Shown here in pieces: positions 45,661 through 64,000 of a stretch of 64,000 nucleotides of DNA. Made by a program: the position numbers and the translations under genes. The notes below the pieces were generated by a model. That model made no database searches and was not told the DNA's origin. It was given only the letters and a program-made list of their open reading frames with translations. The stretch lies in NCBI RefSeq assembly GCF_029626175.1, contig NZ_JARUBM010000002.1, positions 3,427,001 through 3,491,000 on the forward strand. Direction: 5' to 3'. The DNA is from Micromonospora sp. WMMD1082 (GTDB lineage Bacteria; Actinomycetota; Actinomycetes; Mycobacteriales; Micromonosporaceae). The first letter of the stretch is position 1. Every line of letters starts with the position of its first letter.

Positions 45661-45734
45661 GCCGCCTTAGCTCAGTCGGCTAGAGCGACGCACTCGTAAT
45701 GCGTAGGTCGACGGTTCGATTCCGTCAGGCGGCT
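45661..45734 (+). tRNA. tRNA-Thr (anticodon CGT)
   Basis: The 74-nt cloverleaf has acceptor GCCGCCT/AGGCGGC, a D-arm with AGCTCAGTCGGCTAGAGC, anticodon stem ACGCA/TGCGT with loop CTCGTAA (anticodon CGT, reads ACG), and T-arm GACGG TTCGATT CCGTC. CCA is not encoded. Its 3' end is the probable attachment site of the integrated element, because an integrase gene ends 139 bp downstream. Confidence 0.97.
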
Positions 45735-45740
45735 CGGAGA

Positions 45741-45872: not shown

Positions 45873-47090
45873 CTACTTGGTCCGGCGCTTCCCACGATCT
45901 TGAGGCGCAGGGCCGGTTGTCTCTGGACCTGCCCCAAGCTGTTCGAGGATGTCGGAGCTGTCCGGGGCGAGGGCGGGCTTGACGATGTAGTGCTTGTTGG
46001 TGACCTGCTCGGTGGCGTGGCCAAGTTGGGCGGCGGCTCTCTTGGTGTCGGCCTCCTTGTCGATGAGGGTGGCGACGGTCTTGCGGAAGGTGTGCGGGGT
46101 GACCCATTCGAGGCCGGTGTCGGCGCGGGCTTGACGCCACTGACGGCGCACGTTTTGCGGTGACAGCCAGGTGCCGCGTCGGGAGGCGAAGATCGCGTCG
46201 TGGGGGTTGTCGGCGGCGTGGAGTTTGCGAGCCATCAGCATCCCGACCGCGAACCGAGGTAGGACGATTGTTCGGAAACCGGCGTCGGTCTTCGTCCACT
46301 CCTGCCGGAAGAAGCCCTTGCCCTTGAGGTAGACGATCGTGCCGCAGATGGTGAGCGTCGGGCGTTCAGCGACAAGATCGAGATCCTTCCAGCGCAGCGC
46401 CAGAATTTCGCCGATGCGGGCGCCGGTGGCGAGCATGAGGTCGACGATGTCGGCCAGGTCGCCGGTCGGCCGAGGTCCCGACTTGCCGGGGGCGGGTTGT
46501 TGCCACCTTCGGATCGCCTCGCGAACCTCGTTCAGTTGCGTCAACTCCAGGGCCACCACCTTGCGGCGCGGGTTACGCAGTCGACCCGTGTCGCGTACGG
46601 GGTTGGCCGTGAGTGCGCCTCGGCGTACAGCCAAGGCGAACATCTGGCCGAGGACGACCTTCGCGCCTTTGGCGGCTGACGGCCGGTCCTCAGCGACCTT
46701 GCGCAGAAATCTGTCGAGGCGGCCCGCGGTGGCCTCTCGGATACGCAGCTCGCCGAGGGCGGGCTCGATCGAAACACGCACGCTGATCTCGTACCTACTG
46801 ATCGTCTGCGGCGTGACACGTTCCTCCGCGGTGATCTCGTCCAACCAGAGCTTGGCGAGGACCCTGACGTGGGTGTCCCTGGTGATCTCGTCGTCGTTCG
46901 GGGTGACTCGGTCGCGAAGTTTGACCTTCAAAGCCCGGATGGCGGCGGGGCCGGTGGTGTCGGTGGCCTCGACGTCGCGGGTCCTGCCGTCGTGATCACG
47001 GAATCGGGTTCGGGCGCAGTGCCGGTTGGGTCCGAGCTTCTTGGTGCGGATCGCGCCCCAGGTGCCGATGGGTAGTGGGGGTCGGGCCAT
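45873..47090 (-). CDS. int: Tyrosine site-specific integrase
   Basis: The 405-residue phage-type recombinase has an arm-binding N-terminal part (1-70), a core-binding helical domain (70-165) and a catalytic domain with R225 (G-A-R-I-G-E), K267, H333-x-x-R336 (H-T-F-R), H358 (L-G-H) and the nucleophile Y368. It inserts the element into tRNA-Thr. It ends close to the tRNA, the usual orientation for tRNA-site integrases, and lies 3 bp after the excisionase stop. Confidence 0.95.
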   Translation of the reverse strand: MARPPLPIGTWGAIRTKKLGPNRHCARTRFRDHDGRTRDVEATDTTGPAAIRALKVKLRDRVTPNDDEITRDTHVRVLAKLWLDEITAEERVTPQTISRYEISVRVSIEPALGELRIREATAGRLDRFLRKVAEDRPSAAKGAKVVLGQMFALAVRRGALTANPVRDTGRLRNPRRKVVALELTQLNEVREAIRRWQQPAPGKSGPRPTGDLADIVDLMLATGARIGEILALRWKDLDLVAERPTLTICGTIVYLKGKGFFRQEWTKTDAGFRTIVLPRFAVGMLMARKLHAADNPHDAIFASRRGTWLSPQNVRRQWRQARADTGLEWVTPHTFRKTVATLIDKEADTKRAAAQLGHATEQVTNKHYIVKPALAPDSSDILEQLGAGPETTGPAPQDRGKRRTK

Positions 47091-47612: not shown

Positions 47613-48332
47613 TCAGCCATGCCGACTCACCACCGGGGCGGTGAAGACCATTAGGTCGATGTGTAGAACCTGGCCACCTGGCGCGGACATGGTCTGGCGG
47701 CTTAGGTCGGCGGCGTCGGTATCGGTGGCGTAGAAGGTGTACTGGTCGCCTTTTCCCGCAGTGCTGATGGCGACGATGTGCAGGATGTGGGTGATTCCGA
47801 TGTCGTGTGCGGCGGTGCGCAGCATGTGTTCGTGGTCGGCGAATGTCGCGCCGGAAGTGCGGGGGCGGACGGCGGCGATTATGCATGTGTCGCCGACCAT
47901 CATGAGTCGGCAGGCGGTGAACAGGTCGGCGATGCGGTCTGCGGCAGGTTGCTGGTCGTCGCGGGGCCAGCGCAGGGTGACCAGGGTGACTGGCTGGCTG
48001 GTCTGGTCGAGGTCGGCGAGGTGGGCGGGTTCGGTGATGGGCAGGTAGGTGCGACCGGTTTCGGTGGCGGCGGTCTGGAGGTGAGGGTCGTCGTCGAGGG
48101 CGACGACGGTGTCGCCGTGTCGGGTGTAGATGAGCACGAGTCGCCGGGCTAGCCGCGACGCGAAGCTGGCGTCGGGGTCGGTCGTCTGGGGGTCGTCGGT
48201 GTGGTTGTCGAGTCGCCACACGGCGATGGGGACGTCGCCGGCGACTCGGGGTGAGTCGTCGGGGATCGTGGTCGGGGTGTCGGTGGGACGGCGGTCGAGT
48301 GGTTGCGGGTCACGATGTGGATGAGCAGTCAT
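47613..48332 (-). CDS. Degenerate methyltransferase-like element protein
   Basis: The 239-residue soluble protein has a region Y-T-R-H-G-D-T-V-V-A-L-D-D-D followed by R-T-Y-L-P-I that resembles the SAM site of DNA methylases (Y-x-R-P-G-D-x-V-x-D-P-F-x-G-S-G). The glycine/PF motif is lost, so methyl transfer is unlikely. The N-terminal 70 residues are Asp/Thr/Pro-rich. It may be a structural or regulatory relic. Medium confidence it is expressed; low confidence in the fold. Confidence 0.6.
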   Translation of the reverse strand: MTAHPHRDPQPLDRRPTDTPTTIPDDSPRVAGDVPIAVWRLDNHTDDPQTTDPDASFASRLARRLVLIYTRHGDTVVALDDDPHLQTAATETGRTYLPITEPAHLADLDQTSQPVTLVTLRWPRDDQQPAADRIADLFTACRLMMVGDTCIIAAVRPRTSGATFADHEHMLRTAAHDIGITHILHIVAISTAGKGDQYTFYATDTDAADLSRQTMSAPGGQVLHIDLMVFTAPVVSRHG

Positions 48333-48382: not shown

Positions 48383-48524
48383 CCCAACAGCGGACCGCAT
48401 CGCTGCGCTGGCGGAGGGCGGGTTACCCAACAGCGCCCAACACCCGGGCCGACGGTGGTGGGCGAGTCACGCCCAACAGGCAGCGCTGGCCTACCGAACA
48501 GGTACAACGGGGTCGGCTGTTGGG
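48383..48524. repeat. CCCAACA iteron cluster 1
   Basis: CCCAACA occurs at 48383, 48426, 48436 and 48472, and TGTTGGG at 48518. The pair 48426/48436 is one helical turn apart. They fill the 235-bp gap between two minus-strand genes, which has no other feature. Confidence 0.65.
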
Positions 48525-48567
48525 TAGGCAACCCCGTTGTCCGGGCTTGAGGATGTGCGGTGCCGGG

Positions 48568-48936
48568 CTAGCTGTCGCGGTGGTAGGCCATCTTCGTCAG
48601 GATCTCCCAGACGACCTCGGCGCCCACGGCGTCGAGGTGAGCGCGCCGCCGCCGGTATAGCAGCCACTCCACCGCCACGAGCAGCAGATAGATGACGGCG
48701 ACGGCAGCCCAGGCCGCGTTGAGGATCCAGACGAGCGTCATCATGGTCGACGCCGAGTCGCCGATGACGGCGTCGAGGACCGTCAGGATGCCGGCGTTCG
48801 CGACGGCCGCGGCCAGGGCGACGACGCCATACACCGTCCTGTCGACGAGTCGTCGACGGATGTGCGCGGTGTGGTCGGGGTGGTAGACCCGGGGCGCTAT
48901 GCCCGCCAGTGCCTCACCGCAGCCGCACCACACCAT
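48568..48936 (-). CDS. Small three-segment membrane protein
   Basis: The 122-residue protein has hydrophobic helices near 36-55, 65-85 and 88-108, a cytoplasmic R-R-R-R-A-H patch, and a Cys-bearing N-terminus. ATG at 48936 is chosen; an in-frame 48993 start would overlap the iteron cluster. Family unknown to me. It is element-borne and divergent from the sigma-like gene. Confidence 0.6.
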   Translation of the reverse strand: MVWCGCGEALAGIAPRVYHPDHTAHIRRRLVDRTVYGVVALAAAVANAGILTVLDAVIGDSASTMMTLVWILNAAWAAVAVIYLLLVAVEWLLYRRRRAHLDAVGAEVVWEILTKMAYHRDS

Positions 48937-48960
48937 CGCCGAGATCCCGCGACCTCGGCA

Positions 48961-49103
48961 CCCAACAGCGCCCAACAACACGTTGACGTGCACTGTTGGG
49001 TGCCTGCCGCTCGAACCTGGCTGGCCGGGGTTGTTGGGTGTGCGCGGCGGTGACCTGCGCTAACGCGACGTTCCTGCCGACCATGCGGTACGGGTCTGTT
49101 GGG
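48961..49103. repeat. CCCAACA iteron cluster 2
   Basis: CCCAACA sits at 48961 and 48971 (10 bp apart), and TGTTGGG at 48994, 49032 and 49097. This cluster occupies the divergent promoter region between the membrane protein and the sigma-like gene, suggesting a regulator binding there. Confidence 0.65.
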
Positions 49104-49169
49104 TGGACGTGCGCGGATAGGGGTCTCGCGCCGCAGTAGCGCGGCGCCCGATCCCCGCGCGAGGTTCCC

Positions 49170-50078
49170 ATGTCTGCATCTTCTTGGCCGTCGTCCCCGC
49201 TGGACGCGGCCGAACGTGCTTTCGATCTTCTCGTTCAGCCGCCGAGCCATGTCGGTTTCGACGGACGCGGCGTTGACGGTCTGCCCGACGCGATCGTGCC
49301 GCTGGACGTGCTGCGTGCCCTGTTGCTGTCTTCCACGACGTCGGTGGAGGTTCGCGACGCGGTGTGGCGGGAGTTGGTCGTGCGTGCCCGCCGCGACGGG
49401 CCCGCGTGGGTGGTCGCCGCGGTGGGGATGGCGATGCCCCGCCTGCGTCGGGTCGCCGGCATGCTCACGGCCGGGTGGCGTGGTGACACCGACGATCTGG
49501 ACGCCGAGTTGCTCGTCGGGTTCGTCGCCCGGCTCACGACGATCGACCTGGACGTGCCGCGTGTCTGCGGCCGGCTGGTCGACGCCGGCCTGCGGGCCGC
49601 CCGCAAAGCCCGCGACGCCGACTCCGACGCCCAGATCATTCACACCGACGCGACCGGGCCGATCGCCCCGGTCCAGCCGTGGGATCACCCCGATCTGGTG
49701 CTCGCGCGGGCGGTCGCTGCCGGCGTCGTCGACGCCGACGAGGCCAACCTGATCGCGGCGACCCGGATGGACACCACCACCGTGGCGCAGGCCGCCAAGA
49801 AGCTCGGGATCGCGCCGAGCACGGCCAGCGCCTGGCGGGCGAAGGCGGAGCGGCGTCTGGCGGAGGCGATCGCGGCCGGGGAACTCGCCTTCATCCCGCT
49901 GCGGCCACGGCCCGCCCACGATCGCGTGTCCCGCGGTCGGGCTGTTGGGCGGCTGTTGGGTGCCGACCGCGGCGCGGGCGCGTTGTTGGCCACCCAACAG
50001 CGGGCCTTTGGGGGCAAGACATCGGACCGAGAAGCGGCCGGTGTCGGCGCCCCCGGGATCGGGGCGGTGCCGGCCTGA
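49170..50078 (+). CDS. Sigma-like HTH regulatory protein of the element
   Basis: The 302-residue protein has a C-terminal sigma-region-4-like HTH (T-T-V-A-Q-A-A-K-K-L-G-I-A-P-S-T-A-S-A-W, about 210-240). The N-terminal 190 residues are helical and resemble no sigma region 2 that I can see. Similar proteins are found in actinobacterial conjugative elements ahead of T4SS genes. Two TGTTGGG motifs lie within its coding end (49943 and 49954) and one CCCAACA at 49993. It is a candidate activator or repressor of the transfer operon starting at 50204. Confidence 0.7.
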   Translation: MSASSWPSSPLDAAERAFDLLVQPPSHVGFDGRGVDGLPDAIVPLDVLRALLLSSTTSVEVRDAVWRELVVRARRDGPAWVVAAVGMAMPRLRRVAGMLTAGWRGDTDDLDAELLVGFVARLTTIDLDVPRVCGRLVDAGLRAARKARDADSDAQIIHTDATGPIAPVQPWDHPDLVLARAVAAGVVDADEANLIAATRMDTTTVAQAAKKLGIAPSTASAWRAKAERRLAEAIAAGELAFIPLRPRPAHDRVSRGRAVGRLLGADRGAGALLATQQRAFGGKTSDREAAGVGAPGIGAVPA

Positions 50079-50203
50079 GTGGCCGCGTTCGCACCGATCC
50101 ACGAACGGCTGAAAGGAGCGTTGCTCCCACGGCCCGCCCCGGTTCCCGGTGGCGCACCTCAATCCCTATCGAGCCCCGGGTTCCGGGGTGGGAGGTGCCC
50201 ACC

Positions 50204-50542
50204 ATGTTCCGCCGCACCATTATCCGCGTCGTCATCGTGGCCGTTGCCACGGTGGCGGTGCTCGCCGGGGCGAGTCCCGCATTTGCGGCCGAGCCGCCGA
50301 CCCCGGCGCCCTACCCTCTGCCCACGATCATCACCAACATCACGAATTGGATCACTGGCCTGCTGGTGGGGGTAGCGACGCTGTTCCTCACCATCGGAGG
50401 GATCCGTTATCTCGCCGCAGGCGGCGATCCTACCGAAGTGGAGAAGGCCAAGTCCGCACTCAAATCCGCGGTCCTCGGTTACGCCCTCGCCGTGCTGGCG
50501 CCGATCTTACTCGGAATCGTCCGGAGCTGGATTGGAGGCTGA
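50204..50542 (+). CDS. T4SS pilin, VirB2/TrbC-like
   Basis: The 112-residue protein has a signal peptide (1-28, ending A-F-A-A) and two hydrophobic segments (about 43-65 and 87-108) joined by a charged loop G-G-D-P-T-E-V-E-K-A-K, the pattern of T4SS pilins of Gram-positive elements. ATG at 50204 follows GGGAGG. It is the first gene of the transfer operon. Confidence 0.85.
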   Translation: MFRRTIIRVVIVAVATVAVLAGASPAFAAEPPTPAPYPLPTIITNITNWITGLLVGVATLFLTIGGIRYLAAGGDPTEVEKAKSALKSAVLGYALAVLAPILLGIVRSWIGG

Positions 50543-50543
50543 C

Positions 50544-51806
50544 GTGTACGGCTGGATCGTCGACCACACCATCAGCGGCGTCCTTAAATGGTTCGCCAAA
50601 ACGGTTGTGGGGGTGCTGGAAGTTTTGTGGGAGCTGTTGTCGGCGACGGTGTTCGTCAGCCCGGATGTTACACAGCTGCCACAGGTCACCGCGTTCGCCA
50701 GCACGTCGCTGGGCATTGTTAATTCCTGCTATGTGCTGGCGTTCCTGTGGATGGCGGTCCTGGTGGTGGGTCGTGACACCATCCAGGCGCAGTACGGGCC
50801 GGGTGAGTTGATTCCCCGTCTGATCATCGGGCTGATCGGCGCCAACTTCGCCGTCCCTCTGTGTTCGACGGTCATCGCGCTGGCGAACGCGTTAACGGCC
50901 GCGATAACCAGTCAGGACATCACCGCACCCGGCTCGATGCAGCAGCTGCATGCCGCCACGGTCACCGCGGTCGAAGGTCAGACCGGGGCGAACGCCGCCA
51001 GCTTCCTGCTGCTGCTCATTGCCCTGCTGATCGCGGTGCTCGCCAACATCCTCATCGTGCAGTGGATCATCCGGTTGGGAGTGCTGGTGGTGGCGGTCGG
51101 TTTGTCGCCCATCGCCCTGGCGCTGCACGGCACGCCGCAGACAGAGGCAGCGGCGAAGCTGTGGTGGCGACTGCTCCTGGGCACGCTCGGCACGGTGGTC
51201 ATCCAGGCGGTCGCCCTGCACACGACCTTGACCATCTTCCTCAACCCGGACAACAACCTCCCGGTCTTGGGACTGCCGGTTCACGGCGGTGATCCCGGCG
51301 CGGTGATGAACCTGCTCATCGTCGTGTGCCTGCTGTGGGGCGTCGTCAAGATCCCCGGCCTGATGAGCCGATACATCACCCAAACCAGGCCCAACCCCCT
51401 CGGGATGATCCTGCGGGTCGTGCTGATCCAACAGATCACCCAAGGGCTCAGTCGCGGGCTGGGCCGTGGCCGCCACACCGGCCGCGCCGCCGCCAGACGC
51501 CGAAGTCGGCCAGACGCGGGCGGCACCACCGTCGACCCGCCCTGGCCGGTGAGATCAGGTGGCCCCAGTTCCCATGCCGTATCGCCGCCTGCGATATCGC
51601 GCACCGCTCGGCTCGCTGGCGCCACGCCCCGGCCTCGTGGCGCGGTGACCCGGCCAGCGGGGGCAGGCCGCGGCCGGGCCGGCGTGACGTTCCCGTCCGG
51701 CCGACCGGCACGGCCATACACCAGAGACGAAATCGCCGCAGGCGTCGACCTCTACACCCGCGCCGTGAAATCCCGCTCTGGCACCTCCTCACGAGAGGCA
51801 CCCTGA
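50544..51806 (+). CDS. VirB6/TrbL-like membrane channel protein with basic tail
   Basis: The 420-residue protein has about six membrane segments (to about 300), including L-W-M-A-V-L-V-V and V-Q-W-I-I-R-L-G-V-L-V-V-A. A long Arg/Pro-rich cytoplasmic tail ends in G-V-D-L-Y-T-R-A-V-K. GTG at 50544 is set by GGAGG at 50534-50538, one base past the pilin stop. The tail motif recurs in the next small gene. It forms the inner-membrane channel of the transfer machine. Confidence 0.82.
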   Translation: MYGWIVDHTISGVLKWFAKTVVGVLEVLWELLSATVFVSPDVTQLPQVTAFASTSLGIVNSCYVLAFLWMAVLVVGRDTIQAQYGPGELIPRLIIGLIGANFAVPLCSTVIALANALTAAITSQDITAPGSMQQLHAATVTAVEGQTGANAASFLLLLIALLIAVLANILIVQWIIRLGVLVVAVGLSPIALALHGTPQTEAAAKLWWRLLLGTLGTVVIQAVALHTTLTIFLNPDNNLPVLGLPVHGGDPGAVMNLLIVVCLLWGVVKIPGLMSRYITQTRPNPLGMILRVVLIQQITQGLSRGLGRGRHTGRAAARRRSRPDAGGTTVDPPWPVRSGGPSSHAVSPPAISRTARLAGATPRPRGAVTRPAGAGRGRAGVTFPSGRPARPYTRDEIAAGVDLYTRAVKSRSGTSSREAP

Positions 51807-52027
51807 TGAGAACCCACCAACCACCTTCACCTGCGCACGAGAAGACGACCACGCTTTCCGATGGTCCGGACGAGGCCCCCGACATCATCGCCGTCGCCTG
51901 GCCCACCGGCCGGCCCATCCGCTCCTACACCATCGAGGAACTCGCCGAAGGCGTGGACCTCTACACCCGCGCCATGAAGACCGGCGTCACTCGCGCAGTG
52001 GGGCAGGAGGCTCGCGATGCGCGATAG
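51806..52027 (+). CDS. Small protein sharing the VirB6-like tail motif
   Basis: The 73-residue protein has a disordered N-terminal half and then P-T-G-R-P-I-R-S-Y-T-I-E-E-L-A-E-G-V-D-L, matching the last ~30 residues of the preceding protein (G-R-P-A-R-P-Y-T-R-D-E-I-A-A-G-V-D-L). ATG at 51806 overlaps the upstream stop (TGATG), and its end overlaps the PrgI gene by 11 bp. It may be a duplicated docking module. Confidence 0.75.
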   Translation: MRTHQPPSPAHEKTTTLSDGPDEAPDIIAVAWPTGRPIRSYTIEELAEGVDLYTRAMKTGVTRAVGQEARDAR

Positions 52028-52958
52028 CGACGACGCGCCCCCGCGCGCCCGAATTCCCGCCGACATCGACACCCCCGACAAGATCGTCTACGGGTTGACG
52101 GCGCGGCAGTTGGCGATCCTGGTCGTGGCCGGTGTAATCGGCTACGGCATCATCCGGGCGGCCGGCACGCTGCTGTCGCAGCCGGTCCTGTTCGCCGTCC
52201 TCACCCCCCTGGCAGGGGCGGCGGTCGTGCTGGCGCTGGGCCGCCGCGACGGCCTGCCGATGGACGCCTGGCTGCTGGCCGCGATACGGCACACCCGCGA
52301 CCCGAAGCGGCTCGCGCCGGCCCCGTCCGCCCGTCCCTCCGCGGTGCCGGGCTGGGCGCCGGACACCGACGCACCAGCGGCGGTGCCGCTGCTGCGGCTG
52401 CCGGCCACGGCGATCAGCGACGCCGGTGTCATCGACACCGGGCCGCAGGCCGTCGCCCTGGTCGCCTGCACCACCGTCAACATCGGGCTGCGGACCGGCG
52501 ACGAGCAGAACGCCCTGATCAGTGCGTACGGGCGTTGGCTCAACAGCCTGTCGTCGCCGGTGCAGATCGTCATCTCCGCCCAGCGGGTGGACCTGTCCAG
52601 CCACGCCCAACGCATCGCCGATACCGCCGACACCCTGGCCAACCCGGCGCTGGCCGAAGCCGCTGTGGACTACGCGGAGTTCCTCGACGATCTCGCCGCA
52701 CGACGTGACCCACTGTGGCGCACGGTCACGATCGCGGTCACCGCCCGAGGCGAGAAAGGCCGTGACACCGAGGTGCTGCGCCGGGCCGAGCACGCCGCCT
52801 CCGCCCTGTCCGCGCTCGGCGCGCAGACCGCCGTGCTCGACGGCGCCCGCGCCACCGCCGTGCTGACCTGCGCGGTCGACCCCTACACACCCACCGACGT
52901 CACCTGGCCCCGCGCCAGGCCCGACGCCGTCATCACCGGACCAGGAGACCCGGCATGA
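52017..52958 (+). CDS. PrgI-family / VirB3-like T4SS protein
   Basis: The 313-residue protein begins R-I-P-A-D-I-D-T-P-D-K-I-V-Y-G-L-T-A-R-Q-L, the PrgI signature, followed by two membrane helices (about 30-72) and a soluble domain (130-310) resembling the N-terminal part of VirB4. It stabilises VirB4 at the membrane in Gram-positive T4SSs. The stop overlaps virB4 by ATGA. Confidence 0.85.
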   Translation: MRDSDDAPPRARIPADIDTPDKIVYGLTARQLAILVVAGVIGYGIIRAAGTLLSQPVLFAVLTPLAGAAVVLALGRRDGLPMDAWLLAAIRHTRDPKRLAPAPSARPSAVPGWAPDTDAPAAVPLLRLPATAISDAGVIDTGPQAVALVACTTVNIGLRTGDEQNALISAYGRWLNSLSSPVQIVISAQRVDLSSHAQRIADTADTLANPALAEAAVDYAEFLDDLAARRDPLWRTVTIAVTARGEKGRDTEVLRRAEHAASALSALGAQTAVLDGARATAVLTCAVDPYTPTDVTWPRARPDAVITGPGDPA

Positions 52959-54739
52959 CGCTAATGATGAGAAGGCGATCCGCCAGCGCCACCCCCGCGA
53001 GCCCGGCCGACACGGCCGGGCTCGCGTCGGTTCTGGGACCGGACGCGGTCGAGAACACCCCCCGATACATTGCGGTCGGCGACGGATACGCCGCCACGTT
53101 GATCGTCACCGGCTACCCGGCCGAGGTCGGTGGCGCCTGGCTGGATCCGCTGCTGGCGTGGCCGGGCCGCCTCGACGTCGTCGTCTACATCGACCCCCTC
53201 GCCCCGCAGGTGGCCGCCGCGCGGCTGCGACGGCAGCGGGCGCGGTTGGAGTCCAACCGGCGCGACGACGCCGAGAAGGGCCGCCTCGCCGATCCGATCA
53301 CCGAGGCGGCCACGGAGGACGCGGCCGAGTTGGCCGACCGGATCGCCCGCGGCCAGTCGAGGCTGTTCCGCGTCGGCCTGTACCTGTGCGTGCACGCCCC
53401 GAGTCGGGACGAGTTGGACGAGGCGGTCGCGCACGTGCGGGCCACCGCGGCGTCGGTACTGCTGGACACGCAGCCGGCGACCTGGCGGCAACTGCAGGGC
53501 TGGCTGACCAGCCTGCCGCTGGCCACCGACACCCTCGGCATGCGGCGGGTAATGGACACCGACGCCATCGCGACCGCCTTTCCGCTGGCGTCGGCGGACC
53601 TGCCCGCACCACTACCCGGGGAATCCGGGCCGGCCGGGGGCATGTTGTACGGGCTCAACCCCGACTCCAACGGCGTCGTGTGGTGGGACCGCTGGAGCCA
53701 ACACAACGCCAACAGCGTCGTGCTCGCCCGGTCCGGGGCCGGCAAGTCCTACTTCGTCAAGCTCGAAGTGCTGCGGTCGCTGGCCGACGGCGTGTGCTGC
53801 GCAGTCATCGACCCGGACAACGAATACATCCGGCTCACCGAGGCGGTCGGCGGGGTCACCATCGCCCTGGGCGCCGGCGGGGTACGCCTCAACCCACTCG
53901 ACATCCCACCCGCCGACCGCCGCCCACAGGCCCGCACCTACGGGGCGCTGTTCCTACACACCCTGATCGCGGTGCTACTCGGGCAGCAGCCACCGCCGTC
54001 GGAGCGGGCCGCGCTCGACAAGGCGATCAACACCGCGTACGACGCCGCCGGAATCACCAACGACCCGGCCACCTGGCGCCGGCAGGCGCCGCTGCTGCGC
54101 GACGTGGCCGCGGCCCTGGTCGACCAGGGCACCGAGGCGGCGGAAACCCTCGCCGCCCGGCTCACCCCATGGACCACGGGGTCGTTCAAGGAGATGTTCG
54201 ACGGCCCGACCACCAGCGTGCCGTCCGGGCAGCTGATCACCTGGTCCACCCGGCACCTCGCCGACGAACTGCGCGCTCCCGGCATGCTGCTCGCGCTCGA
54301 CGCGATCTGGCGCGACGTCGACGCCCCCGCCGTGTGGTCGGCGAACCCGCCCCGCCGGCTCGTCTTCGTCGACGAGGCCTGGACTCTGCTTCGGGACGGG
54401 GAGGGTGCGAAGTTCCTGTCCCGGCTGGCCAAAAGCGCCCGGAAACGCCGGGCGGGGTTGGCCGTCATCACCCAGGACGTGGGTGACCTGCTCGGCTCCG
54501 ACCTCGGCCAGGTGGTGATCGCCAACGCGGCCACCCAGATCCTGCTGCGGCAGGCCTCGGCCGATGTCGTCGCTGACGTGTTCGGGTTGACCGCCGGCGA
54601 GGCGCGGCTGCTGCTCGGCGCCCGACGCGGTGAAGGACTCCTGCTGTCGGGTACGCACCGGGTCAGCTTCCAGGCGGTGGCGTCCCGGAAAGAGCACCGT
54701 CTCTGCATCGGTGATCTGGAGCTCACCGACGACGACTGA
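52955..54739 (+). CDS. VirB4-family transfer ATPase
   Basis: The 594-residue protein has Walker A A-R-S-G-A-G-K264-S, Walker B R-L-V-F-V-D-E-A-W and the Q-D-V-G motif, typical of VirB4/TraE ATPases that drive T4SS assembly and substrate transfer. ATG at 52955 overlaps the upstream stop (ATGA). The N-terminal part is short because some of the usual VirB4 N-domain is in the PrgI-type gene upstream. Confidence 0.92.
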   Translation: MTLMMRRRSASATPASPADTAGLASVLGPDAVENTPRYIAVGDGYAATLIVTGYPAEVGGAWLDPLLAWPGRLDVVVYIDPLAPQVAAARLRRQRARLESNRRDDAEKGRLADPITEAATEDAAELADRIARGQSRLFRVGLYLCVHAPSRDELDEAVAHVRATAASVLLDTQPATWRQLQGWLTSLPLATDTLGMRRVMDTDAIATAFPLASADLPAPLPGESGPAGGMLYGLNPDSNGVVWWDRWSQHNANSVVLARSGAGKSYFVKLEVLRSLADGVCCAVIDPDNEYIRLTEAVGGVTIALGAGGVRLNPLDIPPADRRPQARTYGALFLHTLIAVLLGQQPPPSERAALDKAINTAYDAAGITNDPATWRRQAPLLRDVAAALVDQGTEAAETLAARLTPWTTGSFKEMFDGPTTSVPSGQLITWSTRHLADELRAPGMLLALDAIWRDVDAPAVWSANPPRRLVFVDEAWTLLRDGEGAKFLSRLAKSARKRRAGLAVITQDVGDLLGSDLGQVVIANAATQILLRQASADVVADVFGLTAGEARLLLGARRGEGLLLSGTHRVSFQAVASRKEHRLCIGDLELTDDD

Positions 54740-54802
54740 CACACCGGCCAACATCCAGATTCTTCATCAGCCATCCCCTTTTCGTTTCAGGGAGGCAATC
54801 CC

Positions 54803-57358
54803 ATGAACCCGCCAACCATCCCTTTCTCGTCGCCTTTCGCGGTCACGCCGCCGCCGTCGCCGGTGCCGCCGGACCTGCCGGCCCCGTCGCAGTGGCTCCT
54901 CGACACCGCCAGCGCGGTCGTGGCCTGGTGCGCGCCGCGGCCATGGCTGTTGGGCGTCGCCGCCGTTGCCCTGGCTGTCGCTGTCGCGGCTCGGGTGGCC
55001 CACGCACGGTGGCGGCAGCAGATGATGACCCGTCACGCCACGTGCCTGGTCATCACCCCGCCGCCGGAGGTCGACCCGTCCGGCACCGCCGCGTTCTGGG
55101 CGACGATGGCCGAGATCCTGCACGCCGGATGGCGTCGCCGGCTGCGCGACGGCCGCGCTCACATCACCGTCGAGTACCGGTGGACCGGACGGGAACTGTC
55201 CATCATGGTGTGGGTGCCCGGCACCCTGCAGACCGGGCCCATCCACGCGGCCGTGCGGGGCGCCTGGCCCGGCGCCGCGTGCACCGTGCTCGACGCGGCC
55301 CCGCCGCTGCCGGGCGGCGCGGTGAGCGTCGGCGGCGCGCTGACGCCGATCCTTCCGCCGTGGTTTCCGCTGGCCACCGACCACGACGCCGACCCGATGC
55401 GGACCCTGATCGCCGCCGCGTCCGGCCTGCACGCGGCCGAATCCGCGTGCGTGCAGGTTCTGGCCCGGCCCGCCACCGCGCGGCAGGTCCGCGGGCTGCG
55501 CCGCGGCGTGCAGGCGCTGCGCACCGGCCGTACGCCGGGCGCCGTGCTCGACCCGGCCACCTGGCTCCGGGCCGCCCTCGACCTGGTGGCGGACCTGTTC
55601 GGCCCCACCCGCCGCACCACCGACCCGCCGGGCCGCACGACGATGCTGCCCGGCGCTGACCCGCAGCGCGACCGCGACGGCCGCGCCGGCATCGACAAAC
55701 TGGCCGGCACCCAGTGGGAGGTGGCAATCCGCTACGCCGTCGCGCACCGCAACCCCCGCGGACGTAGGCCCGAGGACCTGAAGCCTCGGCTGGTCACCCT
55801 CGCCCACGCGATAGCGTCGGCGTTCGGGGCGTGGACCGGCCGCAACCGGCTGCGTCGCCTCCGGCTCACCCAGCCCGCGCGGGTGCTGGCCGCCCGGGTG
55901 CTGCGCCGGGGCTTCCTGCTCAACACCGACGAGCTGGCCAGCATCGCCGCGCTGCCGCAGGACATCGCCGTGCCCGGTCTGGACCGCGCCAGAGCGAAGC
56001 CCATGCCGGCGCCGGTCGCCGTGCCGTTCGGCGGCCGAGGCACCAAGGTCCTCGGCCGGGCGGAGATCGGTGGACACAGCGTCGCGGTGAAGGTGCCCGA
56101 CGCCCGCCAGCACCTGCACGTGCTCGGCTCCACCGGCAGCGGCAAGTCCACGCTGCTGCTGAACATGATCCTGGATGACATCCACGCCCGCCGCGGCACG
56201 ATCGTCATCGACCCCAAAGGCGACCTCATCATCGACCTGCTCGACCGGATCCCGGCGAAGCTGGCCAACCGGCTCGTCCTCATCGACCCCGACCAGCCGG
56301 CCGGCGTCACCCTCAACCCTCTCGAAGGCACCGACCACGACCTGCTCGTCGACAACGTCGTCAGCATCTTCGGCAAGATCTTCGCCAAGCACTGGGGCCC
56401 GCGGATGGACGACGTGCTGCGGGTAGCCTGTTTGACCCTGCTGCGCAAGGCGAACGCGACGCTGACGCTGATCCCGTCGCTGCTGCAAGACCGCAAGTTC
56501 CGGTACAACTTCACCGCCGACCTCGACGATCCCGAGGGCCTGCGGGGGTTCTGGGAGTGGTACGAGTCGGCGCCGGCGCCGCTGCGGTCCCAGGTCATCG
56601 CGCCGCTGCTGTCCCGGCTGCGCTCGGTGCTGCTGCGCGACTTCCCACGCCGCACCTTCGGCGCCCCGGCCAGCTCGTTCGACATGCGCCGGGTCCTCGA
56701 CGGCGGCATCCTGCTCGCCCGGCTCCCCAAAGGGCAGATCGGTGAGGAAACCGCCCGGCTGATGGGCTCGTTCGTCCTCGCCTCGGCCTGGCAGGCCGCC
56801 ACCGGCCGAGTCCGGCTACCCGAGCCGCAACGCCGTGACGCCGTCTGCTACATCGACGAAGCACACAACTTCCTGACCCTGCCCGGCTCGGTGGGCGACA
56901 TGCTCGCCGAAGCCCGCGGCTACCACTTCGGCATGGTCCTCGCGCACCAGAACCTCGCCCAGATGCCCCGCGACACCCAACTCGCGATCAGCGCCAACGC
57001 CCGCAACAAGATCTTCTTCACCTGCGCGCCCGAGGACGCGCACCACCTCGCCCGACACACCCGACCCGAGCTGGACGAGCACGACCTCAGCCACATGGAC
57101 GCCTACCGGGCCGCGTGCCGCCTCGTCGTAGACGGCCGAGAAACCCCGGCGTTCACGCTGCACACCAACCCGCTCCGGCCGCTGGTCGGCGAGGCGACCG
57201 CGGTCCGGCAGGCCGCCGCCGCAGCCGTCGCCGGCAACAGCGGCACGCAGGCGGCGATCGCCCAACTCGCCGGCATCAACACCAACCCAACAGCGCACGG
57301 ACCAGGCCCAACAGCCCCGGCCGAGGACCCAACAGACGACGACAGCACCACTACGTAA
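54803..57358 (+). CDS. VirD4/TraG-like coupling protein
   Basis: The 851-residue coupling ATPase has an N-terminal membrane helix (about 48-65), an all-alpha/beta domain, Walker A L-G-S-T-G-S-G-K448-S-T and Walker B A-V-C-Y-I-D-E-A-H. It feeds the relaxase-DNA complex into the channel. It follows virB4 after 63 bp with GGAGG before ATG. Its last 25 codons contain three CCCAACA motifs exactly 21 bp apart, so the coding end doubles as a DNA site. Confidence 0.9.
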   Translation: MNPPTIPFSSPFAVTPPPSPVPPDLPAPSQWLLDTASAVVAWCAPRPWLLGVAAVALAVAVAARVAHARWRQQMMTRHATCLVITPPPEVDPSGTAAFWATMAEILHAGWRRRLRDGRAHITVEYRWTGRELSIMVWVPGTLQTGPIHAAVRGAWPGAACTVLDAAPPLPGGAVSVGGALTPILPPWFPLATDHDADPMRTLIAAASGLHAAESACVQVLARPATARQVRGLRRGVQALRTGRTPGAVLDPATWLRAALDLVADLFGPTRRTTDPPGRTTMLPGADPQRDRDGRAGIDKLAGTQWEVAIRYAVAHRNPRGRRPEDLKPRLVTLAHAIASAFGAWTGRNRLRRLRLTQPARVLAARVLRRGFLLNTDELASIAALPQDIAVPGLDRARAKPMPAPVAVPFGGRGTKVLGRAEIGGHSVAVKVPDARQHLHVLGSTGSGKSTLLLNMILDDIHARRGTIVIDPKGDLIIDLLDRIPAKLANRLVLIDPDQPAGVTLNPLEGTDHDLLVDNVVSIFGKIFAKHWGPRMDDVLRVACLTLLRKANATLTLIPSLLQDRKFRYNFTADLDDPEGLRGFWEWYESAPAPLRSQVIAPLLSRLRSVLLRDFPRRTFGAPASSFDMRRVLDGGILLARLPKGQIGEETARLMGSFVLASAWQAATGRVRLPEPQRRDAVCYIDEAHNFLTLPGSVGDMLAEARGYHFGMVLAHQNLAQMPRDTQLAISANARNKIFFTCAPEDAHHLARHTRPELDEHDLSHMDAYRAACRLVVDGRETPAFTLHTNPLRPLVGEATAVRQAAAAAVAGNSGTQAAIAQLAGINTNPTAHGPGPTAPAEDPTDDDSTTT

Positions 57359-57365
57359 CCCAACA
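57286..57365 (+). repeat. CCCAACA iteron cluster 3 (phased 21 bp)
   Basis: CCCAACA sits at 57286, 57307 and 57328 (21-bp steps) and at 57359 (31 bp on), all in the same orientation. The first three are inside the coupling-protein gene. A further copy at 57719 lies near the relaxase-like gene start. Confidence 0.7.
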
Positions 57366-57743
57366 GGTACGGCACGTCTCACCTGCCGACTGCGGCTACC
57401 CCGGCAGCGACACCATCGTCCGACAGCGCCAGACGCTGGTCCGCTCGGGCCGACCCCCGTCCACCCCGGCGCCCCTGCCTCGCGCCACCGTCGCCAGACA
57501 CCAGACACCAGCCTCGGCCTGCGTCCGGAGCGTCTCGCCTGCCCCCAGGCGGGGCCGCCACAGCCACTCGTCAACGGGCGTACCCCGGCGCCGGTCATCG
57601 ACCGCACCCGGTGGACGGCCAGCGGCGATCACGTTCGGCCTCAGCACGGCCCTCGGGCCGGACCACGACCCGGCCCGGCGTCGGCGCTGCACGGCCGGCC
57701 CCAGGCCGGGCCTGCCCACCCAACACCCCAGCTAGGAGGCACC
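57359..57743. other. Gene-free stretch, possible oriT/replication region
   Basis: These 385 bp between the coupling-protein gene and the replication-relaxation gene have no credible ORF (frames read through but with poor composition). They are bounded by CCCAACA sites at 57359 and 57719 and end with CTAGGAGG, the ribosome site of the next gene. Their place next to relaxase and coupling genes suggests oriT; no classical nick-site motif was recognised. Confidence 0.4.
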
Positions 57744-58679
57744 ATGCCCGCCGCCGACGACGCCCGACAGTTCCCCCAGGGGAACCCTGCACCGGGGAGC
57801 CGGCCGCTGGTCGTGCTCCGCACGACCTCAGCCACCCGCACCTCCGCGCAGACCCTGATCGACATCTCCCACCGGCTGCGTCCCCGCGACTACGCCATCG
57901 CCTCGCTCCTGCACGAACACACCACCCTGACTACCGACCAGCTCACCGCGATCCTCTTCACCAACCCGACCACCTGCCGGCACCGCCTGCACGCCCTGCG
58001 CAAGCTCGCCTTCGTCGACCGGTTCGTCCGCACCCGACCCGGCGCCCCCAACCCGGTCTGCTGGGTCCCCGGGCTGCTGTCGGCCCGCTACATGGCCCTC
58101 GCCACCGGAGAGAATCCCCCGACCGCGAAGGCGCTACGGGAACGCCAAGACCGCATCTACGCCACCCCGATGCTGGAACACCTGCTCGCGGCGAACCAGT
58201 TCTTCGTCGACCTGCTCGCCCACGCCCGCCAACACCCCGGCACCGGCCTGGTCCGCTGGTGGGGCGAACGCAGCACCACGGCGGCGTTTGGACGGCGTAT
58301 CCACCCCGACGGTCACGGCATTTGGGTCGATGGGCAGCGCAGCACCGGTTTCCACCTCGAACTGGACCGGGGCACCGAACCGCTGCGGCGCCTGACCGAC
58401 CGTCTGGCCTCGCACCGGCGGTTGCACGCCGAAGGAGGACCCGCCTACCCGGTGCTGTTCGTACTCCCCAACCGCGCCCGCGAGCAGAACCTGCACCGCA
58501 AGCTCGCCGAACGACCCGAGCCGAGCCTGACCATCGCGACTACCGCACCCGAGGCCGGAGCGAACCCGGCCGGCCCGGTGTGGCGGATCGCCGGCAACGG
58601 CCGCCACCGGCTCACCCTGGCCGACCTACCCAGCAGCCATGGACAACCCGGCCCCCTCAACCCCGGCCCGCCGAGTTGA
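57744..58679 (+). CDS. Replication-relaxation (putative relaxase/Rep) protein
   Basis: The 311-residue protein has a winged-helix N-terminal part (L-L-H-E-H-T-T-L-T-T-D-Q-L-T-A-I-L-F) and R-L-H-A-L-R-K-L, then a nuclease-like region with W-W-G-E and P-D-G-H-G-I-W. It fits the 'replication-relaxation' family seen in actinobacterial T4SS elements, a likely Rep or relaxase. ATG at 57744 follows CTAGGAGGCACC. Catalytic residues are not proven. Confidence 0.78.
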   Translation: MPAADDARQFPQGNPAPGSRPLVVLRTTSATRTSAQTLIDISHRLRPRDYAIASLLHEHTTLTTDQLTAILFTNPTTCRHRLHALRKLAFVDRFVRTRPGAPNPVCWVPGLLSARYMALATGENPPTAKALRERQDRIYATPMLEHLLAANQFFVDLLAHARQHPGTGLVRWWGERSTTAAFGRRIHPDGHGIWVDGQRSTGFHLELDRGTEPLRRLTDRLASHRRLHAEGGPAYPVLFVLPNRAREQNLHRKLAERPEPSLTIATTAPEAGANPAGPVWRIAGNGRHRLTLADLPSSHGQPGPLNPGPPS

Positions 58680-58704
58680 CCGGGTGGGCCTACTGTCGGT
58701 TGAC

Positions 58705-59283
58705 ATGGAACTCGTACAGATGCTCGCTGCGGCTGCCGATCAGGGGCCCACCCGAGCCGACTGGCTTGCCGCGTGGGCGGGCCTGCTGGCCGCCGTTGGC
58801 ACGGTCGGTACCTTCGTTTGGCAGGCGCGTGCTCTTAGTCGGGAGCGCGAGACGCGGCGGGAGGAAGTTAAGCGTCTGGAGGCCGACCAGCGAGATGCGC
58901 AGGACGCCCAGGCCCGGACAATCGTTCTGCACAATCCGGGATGTGGCGGAAACCAGCGGGTCTCGGTCCGCGATTACGGCGTCACGCTCGGCAACTACGG
59001 GGTGCACCCCATCACCAACATCAGGACCACGCTGACCCACCGCGAGACACAGCAGGATCTGACCGCCGGCGGCCCACAGCCTCTCCCAGTTCTGAAGGCC
59101 GGCGACATGCAGCACCTAAGCTGGAAGGTGGACGGCTACAACGTGGTATGGCCACCCGATCTCGACCATCACGATCTGCCGAATCTATTTCACTGCGAAG
59201 TGGCGTTCACGGACGTTAACGGCGTTCGCTGGATGGTGCGGCCAGGTCTCGGACAGCAGCCGTCTCGGGTCTTCGACTTCTGA
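58705..59283 (+). CDS. Single-pass membrane protein with coiled coil and beta domain
   Basis: The 192-residue protein has one membrane helix (about 20-42), a charged coiled coil (S-R-E-R-E-T-R-R-E-E-V-K-R-L) and a beta domain (about 80-190). The design resembles that of the damaged gene at 60000-60412, so they may be distant paralogues. ATG at 58705 is chosen; the earlier ATG (58639) would overlap the relaxation gene. Cargo of unknown role. Confidence 0.65.
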   Translation: MELVQMLAAAADQGPTRADWLAAWAGLLAAVGTVGTFVWQARALSRERETRREEVKRLEADQRDAQDAQARTIVLHNPGCGGNQRVSVRDYGVTLGNYGVHPITNIRTTLTHRETQQDLTAGGPQPLPVLKAGDMQHLSWKVDGYNVVWPPDLDHHDLPNLFHCEVAFTDVNGVRWMVRPGLGQQPSRVFDF

Positions 59284-59301
59284 CACCTCTGGGTCTTTTG
59301 G

Positions 59302-59966
59302 TTATGCGGCGAGGGCGTGAGCGGACCGCAACATCGGCCGCCACAGAACCTCAGGGGTTTTCACGCCGTACCTACCTCCGTCGAGGTAGTAATCCCGCTC
59401 CTTGATCGGCTCGTCCTCGCCGACCAGCTGTGCCTTCGGGTCCCATGTGTAGCCCGGAACCTCGGTGATGAACCCATCGTACGACTCATGCACATCCATC
59501 AGCCCGGCCGAGAACAGCGACGTCATCAGCCGGATCCCGTCTAACACGTTGTTGTTGGCGGCGGCGACGATGCCGAGGCGGAGCAGGTCCTCCCGCAGTC
59601 CTGCGGCGGACGGGTCGACCACCACCACTCCGGCGTGAGTTTCAGGTCGTCGCGGGGCCAGCGTTGGAGGCTGGTGGCGTACTCCAGGTTCGTGAGCCGG
59701 CGTTGCCGCTTGAGCCAGTGGTAGGGGCCGGCGCGGCTGCAGGTACCGAACACCTGGGCGCCGGGGACGCTGTTGCGGGTGCCGAGCATGCGCCAGAGGT
59801 CCTCGGGCCAGTTGGCGATTTCATGGCCGTGCGCCCCGGCGAGGGTCAGGTCCTGAATTTTCTTCCCGGCCTTGATGCCGTTGGCTCCGGCGGTGTAGAT
59901 GCGTCGGCCGAACAGGCACAGCTCACCAGCGCCGACGGAATATCGGCAGCGTTTGGTGCCGGCCAT
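59302..59966 (-). pseudogene. Phage terminase large-subunit remnant
   Basis: Two reading frames on the minus strand together resemble the middle and end of a phage terminase large subunit. The 59966 side has G-R-R-I-Y-T-A-G-A-N, D-L-T-L-A-G-A-H-G-H-E-I and V-P-G-A-Q-V-F-G-T. The 59302 side has V-V-V-D-P-S-A-A, W-D-P-K and Y-L-D-G-G-R-Y-G-V of the nuclease domain. They are out of frame with each other near 59600-59628. The N-terminal ATPase part and about 100 central residues are missing. It is a decayed prophage gene within the element. Confidence 0.75.
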
Positions 59967-59999
59967 CTCGATGATCGGCCGGTCGCTAAGTTCGCCACC

Positions 60000-60412
60000 A
60001 TGGGAATCAGCGACATCATCACGAGCACCATCGCAGTGCTCGCCCTAATTGTGTCGGGCTGGAGTGCGTGGTTCGCGCGGGCATCCTCTCGGTCGGCGGA
60101 GCGACAGGCGGTGGCAGCCGAGGCCGCGCTGCCGCCGCCGAAGGATGTGGCCTGGGTTGTCCAACGCCGAAACAAGGGGCGCTACGTGCTGAGTAACACC
60201 GGCACGAAGCCAGCGAAGGGTTTGCAGTGGATCCCGGCTGGCGCCGAGAACGAGGGATTCATCCGCTTCCCGAGGGACGTTGGTCGGGTCCTGCCGGGAG
60301 GTGATGTCGCGTTCACGGTCATACAGGCGTACGCGGATGCCCCGACCAGTTGTTCCTCACCTGGGATGGGCAGAGCGAGGCTGTGGCGGTCCCCTCCCTT
60401 CGTAAGGCTTAG
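60000..60412 (+). pseudogene. Frameshifted single-pass membrane protein
   Basis: ATG at 60000 opens a protein with a membrane helix (about 5-25), an R/A/E-rich coil, and a beta domain starting D-V-A-W-V-V-Q-R-R. At a run of four C (60340-60343) the frame breaks. One frame over, the downstream sequence continues D-Q-L-F-L-T-W-D-G-Q-S-E-A-V-A-V-P and stops at 60412, exactly how related proteins usually end. One extra C would restore it, so it is either a real mutation or a homopolymer sequencing error. Confidence 0.6.
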
Positions 60413-60456
60413 AGGCCCGAGACGGGCAGGCTGCAGGTCTCGGGCCCGTTGCCTCG

Positions 60457-60651
60457 TCAGCGGCTGGCGCGCTGGCCGCGTGGGCACTCTGGGTTGGTGC
60501 ATGCATCGATCGGCGACCACCGATCTGGACCGGAAGAGAGCCGGTCGTCCGGGGCCCAATCCTGCGTTTCCATCTGCTCTCCGCACTCGGAGCAGTCATC
60601 GGGCTCGTGGTAGCGCTTCTCCGCGCTGGTGTAGATCTTCTGGGGACTCAT
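60457..60651 (-). CDS. Small zinc-ribbon protein
   Basis: The 64-residue protein has C-S-E-C-G and C-T-N-P-E-C separated by about 30 residues, a likely zinc ribbon, in a charged sequence with a conserved-looking W-S-P-I-D-A. ATG at 60651 (MSPQKIY) is chosen over 60738. It lies downstream of the nuclease-like gene on the same strand. Confidence 0.6.
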   Translation of the reverse strand: MSPQKIYTSAEKRYHEPDDCSECGEQMETQDWAPDDRLSSGPDRWSPIDACTNPECPRGQRASR

Positions 60652-60761
60652 GCGCTCAATCGTGCCGCAAGGGGACACACAGTCGAGGTCGACACTTCTG
60701 CTGGTGTCAGCGAGTCCCCTGGCGCCCCGAAGGGGCAAATTGGCACGTGGCCAGAGCGAGG

Positions 60762-61742
60762 TCAGGAGTTGTCCGGGTTGACCAAGTCCTCCACCGTCAC
60801 CACGACGGGGCTTGCCTTTCCCTGCTTGCTTGCCGTCGTGCGAGGCGGCAACGCCCGAACGCCAACCAGGTAAACCCGGACCCCCGCCATATCGACGTAC
60901 GGGAACGAGACGCCCTTGGACTCGTCAGCCGGAAACTGAAGCGGGCGGCCGGAGATGTTGAAGATAACCAGGTAGGCCACGCTCTTCTGGTAGTCCTGGG
61001 CGTATTGGATGACTTGGTTGTACCCCTTGGCCAGGTAGTTCTTGCCGCGTGATCCGGCATCGAAGATCTTGCCGTCGCAAATCAGGGCGTCGTCCGAATC
61101 GACCTCCCCGATGATGTCCGCCTCGCCGGACGCCGAGCGGGGCTTGGCGTGGGTGACGTAGTTCCCCTCTAGGTACAAGAACCGCTGAAGGTCCAGGTTG
61201 TAGACCTCCTCGCCGTTGCGCGTGTCCTGCTGGAACCGGGCGTAAAGCTCTTCCCGATCGAACCACTCAACTCGACGGACATACCGCTCCAAGGTGTAGA
61301 GCACACTGCTCTCCGCGCCCACTCGCTCACCCATGTAGTCAAAGAAGGGTGCGAGCGCCAGCTCTACGAATTTCCGCCACCCGTCGTTGATGTTGCGCTC
61401 GCCGGACGCAAAGGCCATTTGCCGCACGATGGTCGATTTGTCGCCATGCTTGATGTCGCCTTCGGCGATGTGCTTCATGAGGCGCCATGCGAGCACGGCC
61501 CGGCCCCCTTCGGTGGTGCTCTTCCAGGAGAGATCGCGTTGCTGTAGGCGGGAAAGGAAGGCGGCGAAGTCCAAGCCCGGCTCGATCTGCTCGGCCTCGG
61601 CGAGAGCGGCACGAAGCGCCGGCTGCTTCTTAACCCAGTCGACGACCAGCCGTACCTCGTGACCGGCGAAACCGTAGTGCTGGGTCAGAATCCGACGCAT
61701 GCGTTCACGGAGCGCTACCTGGAGGTCCTGCTGATGCCTCAT
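60762..61742 (-). CDS. PD-(D/E)XK nuclease-like protein
   Basis: The 326-residue protein has a helical N-terminal part (1-160) and a C-terminal domain with E207-A-D209, D223-G-K225 and Q243-x-x-x-Y247 in the order and spacing of PD-(D/E)XK nucleases (E...D-x-K...QxxxY), followed by Y-L-V-I-F-N. It is probably a DNA/RNA-cutting enzyme, possibly a defence or stability module. The ATG at 61742 overlaps the stop of the upstream zinc-ribbon gene (ATGA), so the two form an operon. The substrate is unknown; I know no named system of this makeup. Confidence 0.72.
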   Translation of the reverse strand: MRHQQDLQVALRERMRRILTQHYGFAGHEVRLVVDWVKKQPALRAALAEAEQIEPGLDFAAFLSRLQQRDLSWKSTTEGGRAVLAWRLMKHIAEGDIKHGDKSTIVRQMAFASGERNINDGWRKFVELALAPFFDYMGERVGAESSVLYTLERYVRRVEWFDREELYARFQQDTRNGEEVYNLDLQRFLYLEGNYVTHAKPRSASGEADIIGEVDSDDALICDGKIFDAGSRGKNYLAKGYNQVIQYAQDYQKSVAYLVIFNISGRPLQFPADESKGVSFPYVDMAGVRVYLVGVRALPPRTTASKQGKASPVVVTVEDLVNPDNS

Positions 61743-61975
61743 CCGAAGATGCCCTTCACCGCTCGGTTGATCTGCCGATCCAGGGTGTCACCCAAGGTCT
61801 GCATCTTGCCGCCTACGTCCAAGAGACGAAGCTGAAGCCGGCAGCACGGACACGTCACGGTGCACTGCGCGATGACCTCAGAGAGGCGGATCCATACCTG
61901 GTAGCCGCACTCCGGACAGTCAATCTCGTGATCGCCATGCAAGATCTGGCTGGCCAGGGACACGAGAAGCATCAT
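61739..61975 (-). CDS. Zinc-ribbon partner of the nuclease-like protein
   Basis: The 78-residue protein has C-P-E-C-G and C-P-C-C pairs (about residues 20-45), a zinc ribbon, and a short amphipathic C-terminal helix. Its stop overlaps the nuclease start (ATGA). ATG at 61975 is chosen (two adjacent ATG codons, preceded by GGGGTGG); in-frame starts at 62080 or 62182 would add poor leader sequence. A role as nucleic-acid binding or targeting subunit is inference. Confidence 0.65.
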   Translation of the reverse strand: MMLLVSLASQILHGDHEIDCPECGYQVWIRLSEVIAQCTVTCPCCRLQLRLLDVGGKMQTLGDTLDRQINRAVKGIFG

Positions 61976-62004
61976 CCACCCCGACTGGGGGCGAGGCCAA
62001 TCGA

Positions 62005-63933: not shown

Positions 63934-64000
63934 GGAGTCATGGTATCCGCGCCTAGGCGCAGGCTGCCTCCGCGGTGGTCTTGACTGGTGCCAGGTCGGT

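Follow-up and report, generated by a model that had tools for sequence, protein, structure and literature searches.

Clustered, element-specific DNA words in a Micromonospora conjugative element and their possible regulator

A conjugative element of Micromonospora sp. WMMD1082 (Micromonosporaceae) carries clusters of a short, asymmetric DNA word, CCCAACA, in the gaps ahead of several of its operons, and distant relatives of the element carry other words in its place. The element was recognized in a stretch of 64,000 nucleotides (contig NZ_JARUBM010000002.1, positions 3,427,001 to 3,491,000), referred to below as the window, and positions are those of the window. The sites, their layout, their phasing and the drift of the word between elements can be read from the DNA sequences compared. 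They suggest a set of element-specific operators whose probable binder is the product of an element gene, sig, a sigma-like helix-turn-helix (HTH) protein, with repression as the likely outcome and with recognition helix and word changing together. Taken as a whole, this reading appears reasonably probable.

Sites in the gaps between operons

The original prediction had claimed at least 19 copies of CCCAACA or its complement TGTTGGG between 48383 and 57725, with just one other near 10398, and exact counting confirmed this. The window contains 20 copies, 19 within that stretch and one at 10399, as against a mean of 5.1 and a maximum of 11 in 100 dinucleotide shuffles of the 64 kb. The whole genome has 380 copies in 7,443,785 bases (0.051 per kb) and the motif stretch has 2.03 per kb, about 40 times the genome-wide density; rather than being equally rich in the motif, the host is about 40-fold sparser. 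Most copies read RCCCAACAG, a 9-bp asymmetric word. The longer word CCCAACAG occurs 132 times genome-wide, of which 15 fall in the window and 3 directly beyond its right edge. Also to the right of the window is a fifth cluster, with four CCCAACA copies, at the equivalent of 65019-65139 (9019-9139 of locus L001).

Neighboring copies are 10 bp apart at 48426-48436 and 48961-48971, 11 bp apart at 49943-49954, twice 21 bp apart at 57286-57307-57328 and 31 bp apart at 57328-57359. All of the distances quoted earlier (10, 10, 11, 21, 21 and 31 bp) are thus correct, and the helical phasing read from them holds for neighbors on the same strand. It was also correct that three copies lie within the coupling-protein gene (54803-57358), at its coding end; the fourth begins just past the stop codon. 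The expectation that related elements would share the spacing pattern was borne out in close relatives, but of the three word classes examined at greater distance two did not show it.

Sixty loci with sig homologs were retrieved from genomes of the family, and later 10 more. Site layout was compared in 17 elements, counting that of the window, whose sig proteins are at least about 60% identical; some of the gaps could be scored in only part of the elements. The gap between sig and the divergent gene g476 contains 79 sites in 14.7 kb, the region from the sig 3' end to the pilin gene of the type IV secretion system (T4SS) 50 sites in 7.1 kb, the region from the end of the coupling-protein gene to the Replic_Relax gene 29 sites in 8.7 kb (14 elements), and the region downstream of Replic_Relax 29 sites in 26.0 kb. 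The T4SS genes hold 14 sites in 109 kb, and there are none in the bodies of sig (12.0 kb) or Replic_Relax (12.6 kb). Because the sites are concentrated in gaps ahead of several operons, the layout is that of a regulon and not of a single replication or partition locus.

All sites in the gap after the coupling-protein gene point with transcription (29+/0- in 14 elements, window included); the other two main gap types have 50+/29- and 29+/21-. Ten of the 14 scored elements, again including the window, have a site 25-26 bp ahead of the Replic_Relax start. In many relatives, though not in every one, a GGATAG/AATCG-type element follows a site at the sig promoter at a distance of about 10-12 bp; in the window, the last copy of cluster II is 11 bp ahead of a GGATAG element, which is found again in many relatives. 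Relatives also have site clusters in the gap that holds cluster I, and cluster III is well conserved among nine aligned elements (cluster positions in Table 1).

Few or no CCCAACA sites are found in L052, L053, L054, and L058 (just under the identity limit). The sig proteins of this site-poor subclade are 59-62% identical and retain the W of the recognition helix, and the sites may have been lost or changed.

Changing words and the candidate binder

In distant relatives another word is clustered at sig, namely ACCCAACT with its C and G variants, CCTGACAG, TCTGACAG or ACTCACAG; TTGAACA is clustered at sig in L121 and in L128, the latter from another family. Words were found for each locus by k-mer enrichment against an order-2 background. 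An expectation-maximisation motif search per locus was dropped because in many loci it drifted toward GC-rich words of low information. When the words were fixed, 51 of the 61 loci could be assigned to one word class: 27 are CCCAAC-type (GCCAACA included), 10 CCTGACA, 6 TCTGACA and 8 CTCACA. Four of the 10 loci added later (L120, L121, L123 and L128) have a word at p<1e-5.

The notion of a set of sites peculiar to the element was likewise supported. The window's genome encodes five sig homologs, and element regions of 20-23 kb each were compared. CCCAACA occurs 23 times in the window element (expected 2.2), CCTGACA 8 times in L075 (expected 3.0), TCTGACA 13 times in L120 (expected 1.2) and TTGAACA 7 times in L121 (expected 0.5); the CCCAACA counts in L075, L120 and L121 are 0, 2 and 0. 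The L075 excess is modest across the region and clearer in gaps (6 vs 0.4). The fifth homolog, L122 (sig 30-34% identical), has no clear word.

The sig protein has a C-terminal HTH at residues ~190-235, weakly resembling sigma region 4 and transposase HTHs; Sigma70_r4 matches at E<=0.1 in 19 of 52 aligned homologs, and the window's protein itself matches at E 0.13. Its nearest named relatives are from Micromonospora. Searches gave no match among PLSDB plasmids, no meaningful match among solved structures and, for the window's sig, no PHROG family at E<=0.1. The recognition helix varies with the word class. Position 222 is W in 24 of the 27 CCCAAC-type loci, and the helix reads RMRR in all 10 CCTGACA loci, RRRV then RID in all 6 TCTGACA loci, and MR(L/H)GRID in 6 of 8 CTCACA loci.

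Across 40 loci, word distance correlates with distance in the sig HTH (0.76), the Replic_Relax HTH (0.69), the sig N-part (0.57) and VirB4 (0.54). Once VirB4 and Replic_Relax are controlled for, the sig HTH keeps a partial correlation of 0.50, above all 2000 permutations. Nearest-neighbor prediction of word class succeeded for 36/37 loci with the sig HTH, 34/37 with the Replic_Relax HTH and 36/37 with VirB4, and for 26-30/37 with every region tested once close relatives were removed. These distance and neighbor tests favor sig over Replic_Relax only weakly. Genome G119 has no match to PF13814, the Replic_Relax family, at E<=0.001, and CTCACAC/CGTGTGA words cluster at its sig (L092). In the G278 copy, ACCCAAC is found at sig (4 in, 0 out), with no T4SS or Replic_Relax match in the 60 kb read, and the two PF13814 genes of that genome lie elsewhere. 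This evidence consists of two loci with modest counts. Because the sig-side clusters there have no Replic_Relax nearby, sig is placed first among candidate binders and Replic_Relax second. The original prediction had offered either the sigma-like or the relaxation protein; the former remains a candidate, with the leaning toward it coming mainly from these two loci.

The divergent gene g476 was rejected as binder because many site-carrying relatives have no tblastn match to it, although a diverged copy could be missed.

Proposed control and rival explanations

The identity of the binder, the sign of regulation and the insulation between elements we infer as follows. The sig protein would most probably bind RCCCAACAG, cooperatively and on one face of the helix where copies are 10, 11, 21 or 31 bp apart. 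Under its control would be its own promoter, the g476, T4SS and Replic_Relax operons and those of the genes farther right. Repression is the likeliest sign, with initiation blocked at promoters. In the gap between the coupling-protein and Replic_Relax genes, where sites point with transcription, elongation would be roadblocked, obstructing read-through from the T4SS operon into Replic_Relax. In related elements helix and word would have changed together, each element answering to its own regulator. Alternatively, sig may activate or play a mixed role; a regulator in contact with RNA polymerase would equally be consistent with the promoter element that follows the site nearest sig. A broader proposal is that a large family of actinobacterial conjugative elements uses a diversifying operator code, sig and its operators co-evolving into private words (CCCAACA, CCTGACA, TCTGACA, CTCACA and TTGAACA), so that elements coexist without cross-talk and a newcomer with the same word is silenced. 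This proposal is tentative and, on balance, doubtful; its predictions are that different words insulate co-resident elements and that equal words exclude newcomers.

Several observations weigh against repression by an element-specific sig protein. Both strands are used outside the coupling-gene gap, and same-strand phasing was not seen in word classes B and C. Ten of the 61 loci are unclassed, 6 of the 10 further loci have no word better than p 1e-5, and the words of L075 and L120, two of the four found in the window's genome, are one base apart. The helix pattern has exceptions in L050, L069 and L070 (class A) and in L071 and L092 (class D), and the presumed sigma-like fold is based on weak HTH matches. 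The Replic_Relax HTH, too, has a partial correlation (0.32, controlling for VirB4 and sig) that exceeds all 2000 permutations. Finally, word class also tracks general phylogeny, and nearest-neighbor prediction separates the candidates poorly.

One might instead expect Replic_Relax to bind the sites as relaxosome or origin iterons, the clusters near its gene and at the sig end then marking oriT or oriV. The protein combines its PF13814 match with weak HTH matches in the N-part and a PHROG match to 'replication initiation by nicking', its HTH distance likewise correlates with word distance, the site 25-26 bp ahead of its start recurs in 10 of 14 elements, and cluster III abuts a conserved foldable block (see below). 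Nonetheless this is unlikely: words cluster at sig in G119 and in the G278 copy as described above, sites precede other operons as well, and the Replic_Relax HTHs of L089 and L097, both CTCACA loci, are nearest to those of TCTGACA elements. It is quite improbable that sig is a true sigma factor with TGTTGGG as its -35 element, making the sites promoters and not operators. The copies use both strands and form tight arrays with steps of 10-11 bp, and the site before Replic_Relax, 25 bp from the ATG and in the opposite orientation, leaves little room for a -10 element. Region 2 was unmatched in the query and 52 homologs apart from a 13-residue PhyR_sigma2 match (E 0.036) in L090, even though the HTH resembles sigma region 4 and the GGATAG/AATCG-type element follows the site by ~10-12 bp at the sig promoter of many relatives.

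Of the iteron/parS/operator system envisaged in the original prediction, the iteron and parS readings were not supported. No ParA gene, or other partner ATPase/GTPase gene for a ParB/parS system, was found among the 20 open reading frames (ORFs) scanned (E<=0.001), and it is this result together with the regulon layout that led to the idea being set aside. A parS-like centromere for segregation or pairing of the excised element is accordingly very unlikely with sites spread ahead of several operons and not at one locus, despite phased repeats in several clusters and the precedent of R388 StbA, which is described as joining promoter sites and a stability role via 9-bp direct repeats (PMC3098194). 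That a host DNA-binding protein reads the word, or that the word reflects coding or composition bias, is hardly credible. The copies in the 3' ends of sig and the coupling-protein gene are indeed translated, but there are just 380 copies in 7.44 Mb and none in the sig and Replic_Relax bodies, and four elements of one genome carry four words, a diversity that binding by a host protein would hardly explain.

The element and comparable systems

The inference of a conjugative element has held up. As in T4SS-type integrative and conjugative elements (ICEs), an integrase adjoins a tRNA gene, and VirB4, coupling-protein, pilin and PrgI genes are present (Table 1). The tRNA-Thr gene and neighboring tyrosine integrase mark the left end. 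Besides Replic_Relax, no Pfam relaxase matched in the ORFs scanned. A search for att repeats found no shared 15-mer within ~50 kb rightward. An exact 35-bp copy of the tRNA-Thr 3' end lies at G000:C2:3918037-3918071, ~445 kb right of the integration site; it may be a distant attR, what is left of another element, or the product of a rearrangement.

Table 1. Features of the element in window coordinates
Feature	Position	Strand	Basis or remark
tRNA-Thr(CGT), likely integration site	45661..45735	+	ARAGORN; integrase gene adjoins its 3' end
Tyrosine integrase	45873..47090	-	PF00589 E 6e-21
g476, divergent gene, no Pfam family	47613..48332	-	tblastn homologs near sig in many, not all, relatives
Site cluster I, 5 copies (48383+, 48426+, 48436+, 48472+, 48518-), upstream of g476	48383..48524	.	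exact count
g485, small ORF divergent from sig, start codon uncertain, no Pfam family	48568..48993	-	ORF
Site cluster II, 5 copies (48961+, 48971+, 48994-, 49032-, 49097-), divergent sig promoter region	48961..49103	.	
sig, sigma-like HTH protein, 302 aa	49170..50078	+	weak HTH and Sigma70_r4-type matches
Site cluster III, 3 copies (49943-, 49954-, 49993+), sig 3' end, before T4SS operon	49943..49999	.	
Conserved, strongly foldable block; candidate structured leader of T4SS operon or oriT	49985..50203	+	
T4SS pilin (TrbC/VirB2-like)	50204..50542	+	PF18895 E 3e-19
PrgI-family T4SS protein	52017..52958	+	PF12666 E 2e-19
VirB4/TraC-like ATPase	52955..54739	+	PF19044 E 4e-15
VirD4/TraG-like coupling protein	54803..57358	+	PF10412 E 1.5e-7
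Isolated site near start of coupling-protein gene	54948-54954	-	exact count
Site cluster IV, 4 copies, all +, end of coupling-protein gene	57286..57365	+	exact count
Single site 25 bp upstream of Replic_Relax ATG	57719..57725	+	
Replic_Relax protein	57744..58679	+	PF13814 E 7e-39; PHROG 'replication initiation by nicking' E 2e-8

In L039, a close relative whose sig is 91% identical, the gene order from g476 to Replic_Relax is identical. Its last cluster, with steps of 20, 43 and 52 bp, lies ~0.75 kb after Replic_Relax, and that of the window element, with steps of 20, 43 and 51 bp, lies ~6.3 kb after it; since the steps are nearly equal and the distances are not, several kb seem to have been inserted in the window element. 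A glycosyltransferase fragment (62446-62730) lies in the region of this apparent insertion (58680-64000 plus L001 8000-9000). To the right of the last cluster, and perhaps within the element, are two GGDEF (diguanylate cyclase) genes, at L001 10324-11112 and 15356-16201.

The block that runs from about 49985 up to the pilin gene, overlapping the sig 3' end and the T4SS leader, is conserved at the DNA/RNA level beyond the needs of the protein. In nine elements, leaving out the near-identical pair of window and L039, third positions at codons for the same amino acid agree at 0.89-0.95 over sig residues 258-302 vs 0.51-0.62 over residues 1-240, and in three of the nine (L042, L044 and L046) the sig frame stops before the block and the DNA is nonetheless kept. 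As single-stranded DNA the block folds unusually strongly (z -4.5). In a consensus RNA fold predicted from 14 sequences, ACCTC base-pairs with GAGGT at the ribosome-binding site of the pilin gene, with small compensatory support (8/71 pairs, covariation term -0.67). The block may be a structured leader or oriT. An Rfam search gave one sub-threshold match. By eye, the block is absent from the short sig-pilin gaps of the site-poor L053, L054 and L058.

Other repeats were seen near sig homologs. L074 has a long array, CRISPR-like in looks only, with 64 copies of GGGAGCA within 20 kb of its sig homolog, and GGGAGCA occurs 41 times in L039. In L073, units mostly 32 bp apart with CGACAAC words follow sig (7046-7261 of the oriented copy), and the words upstream of sig differ, reading CTGACAG.

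Repeated operators before many operons are familiar from the plasmid regulators KorA and KorB of RP4, which belong to other protein families and have palindromic operators. A literature search returned no account of the present words in conjugative elements, and the papers found by the word itself were unrelated by title. In design there is a close likeness to the cluster A mycobacteriophages (L5/TipsytheTRex repressor), described as having more than 20 short asymmetric stoperators for one repressor in promoters and gaps, with site consensus and repressor diverging jointly into separate immunity groups (PMC6550527, PMC9283540). The conjugative element likewise has many short asymmetric sites in the promoters and gaps of a mobile genome, with consensus and regulator drifting together. 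However, stoperators are reported as 13 bp long and mostly oriented with transcription, whereas the present word is 9 bp and of mixed orientation except in the coupling-gene gap (29+/0-), and the helically phased arrays, the conjugative setting and the lack of a PHROG match for the window's sig are further differences.

Plasmid R388 is described as carrying 9-bp direct repeats with 2-bp spacers (11-bp pitch), the stbDRs, at the stb promoter of an operon beside oriT, with the word also in other plasmid promoters and a plasmid-coded binder (PMC3098194). The element resembles it in having 9-bp direct repeats at about one helical turn (10, 11, 21 and 31 bp pitch) in promoters and an element-coded candidate binder, and differs in that clusters also precede transfer operons and the word varies between elements of one genome. 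Family scans gave no homology of sig to cluster A repressors or StbA, and none of StbA type in Pfam, with no direct protein comparison made. In a survey of Actinobacteria, 17 putative T4SS-type ICEs are listed (PMC3218068), which share with the present element an integrase, VirB4 and VirD4-type genes and a tRNA site; the portion of that survey consulted describes no such operator sites.

Among the genomes searched, sig homologs were found in 166 of 300 from the family and in 42 of 345 from the class. If the reading is true, a widespread class of conjugative elements would have a readable specificity code, predicting which elements coexist and where transfer operons are controlled, and would supply an HTH family whose recognition helices could be matched in number with their DNA words. 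Under the broader proposal of private words, conjugative elements would have an equivalent of the homoimmunity groups of phages, and one that could be read from the DNA by itself.

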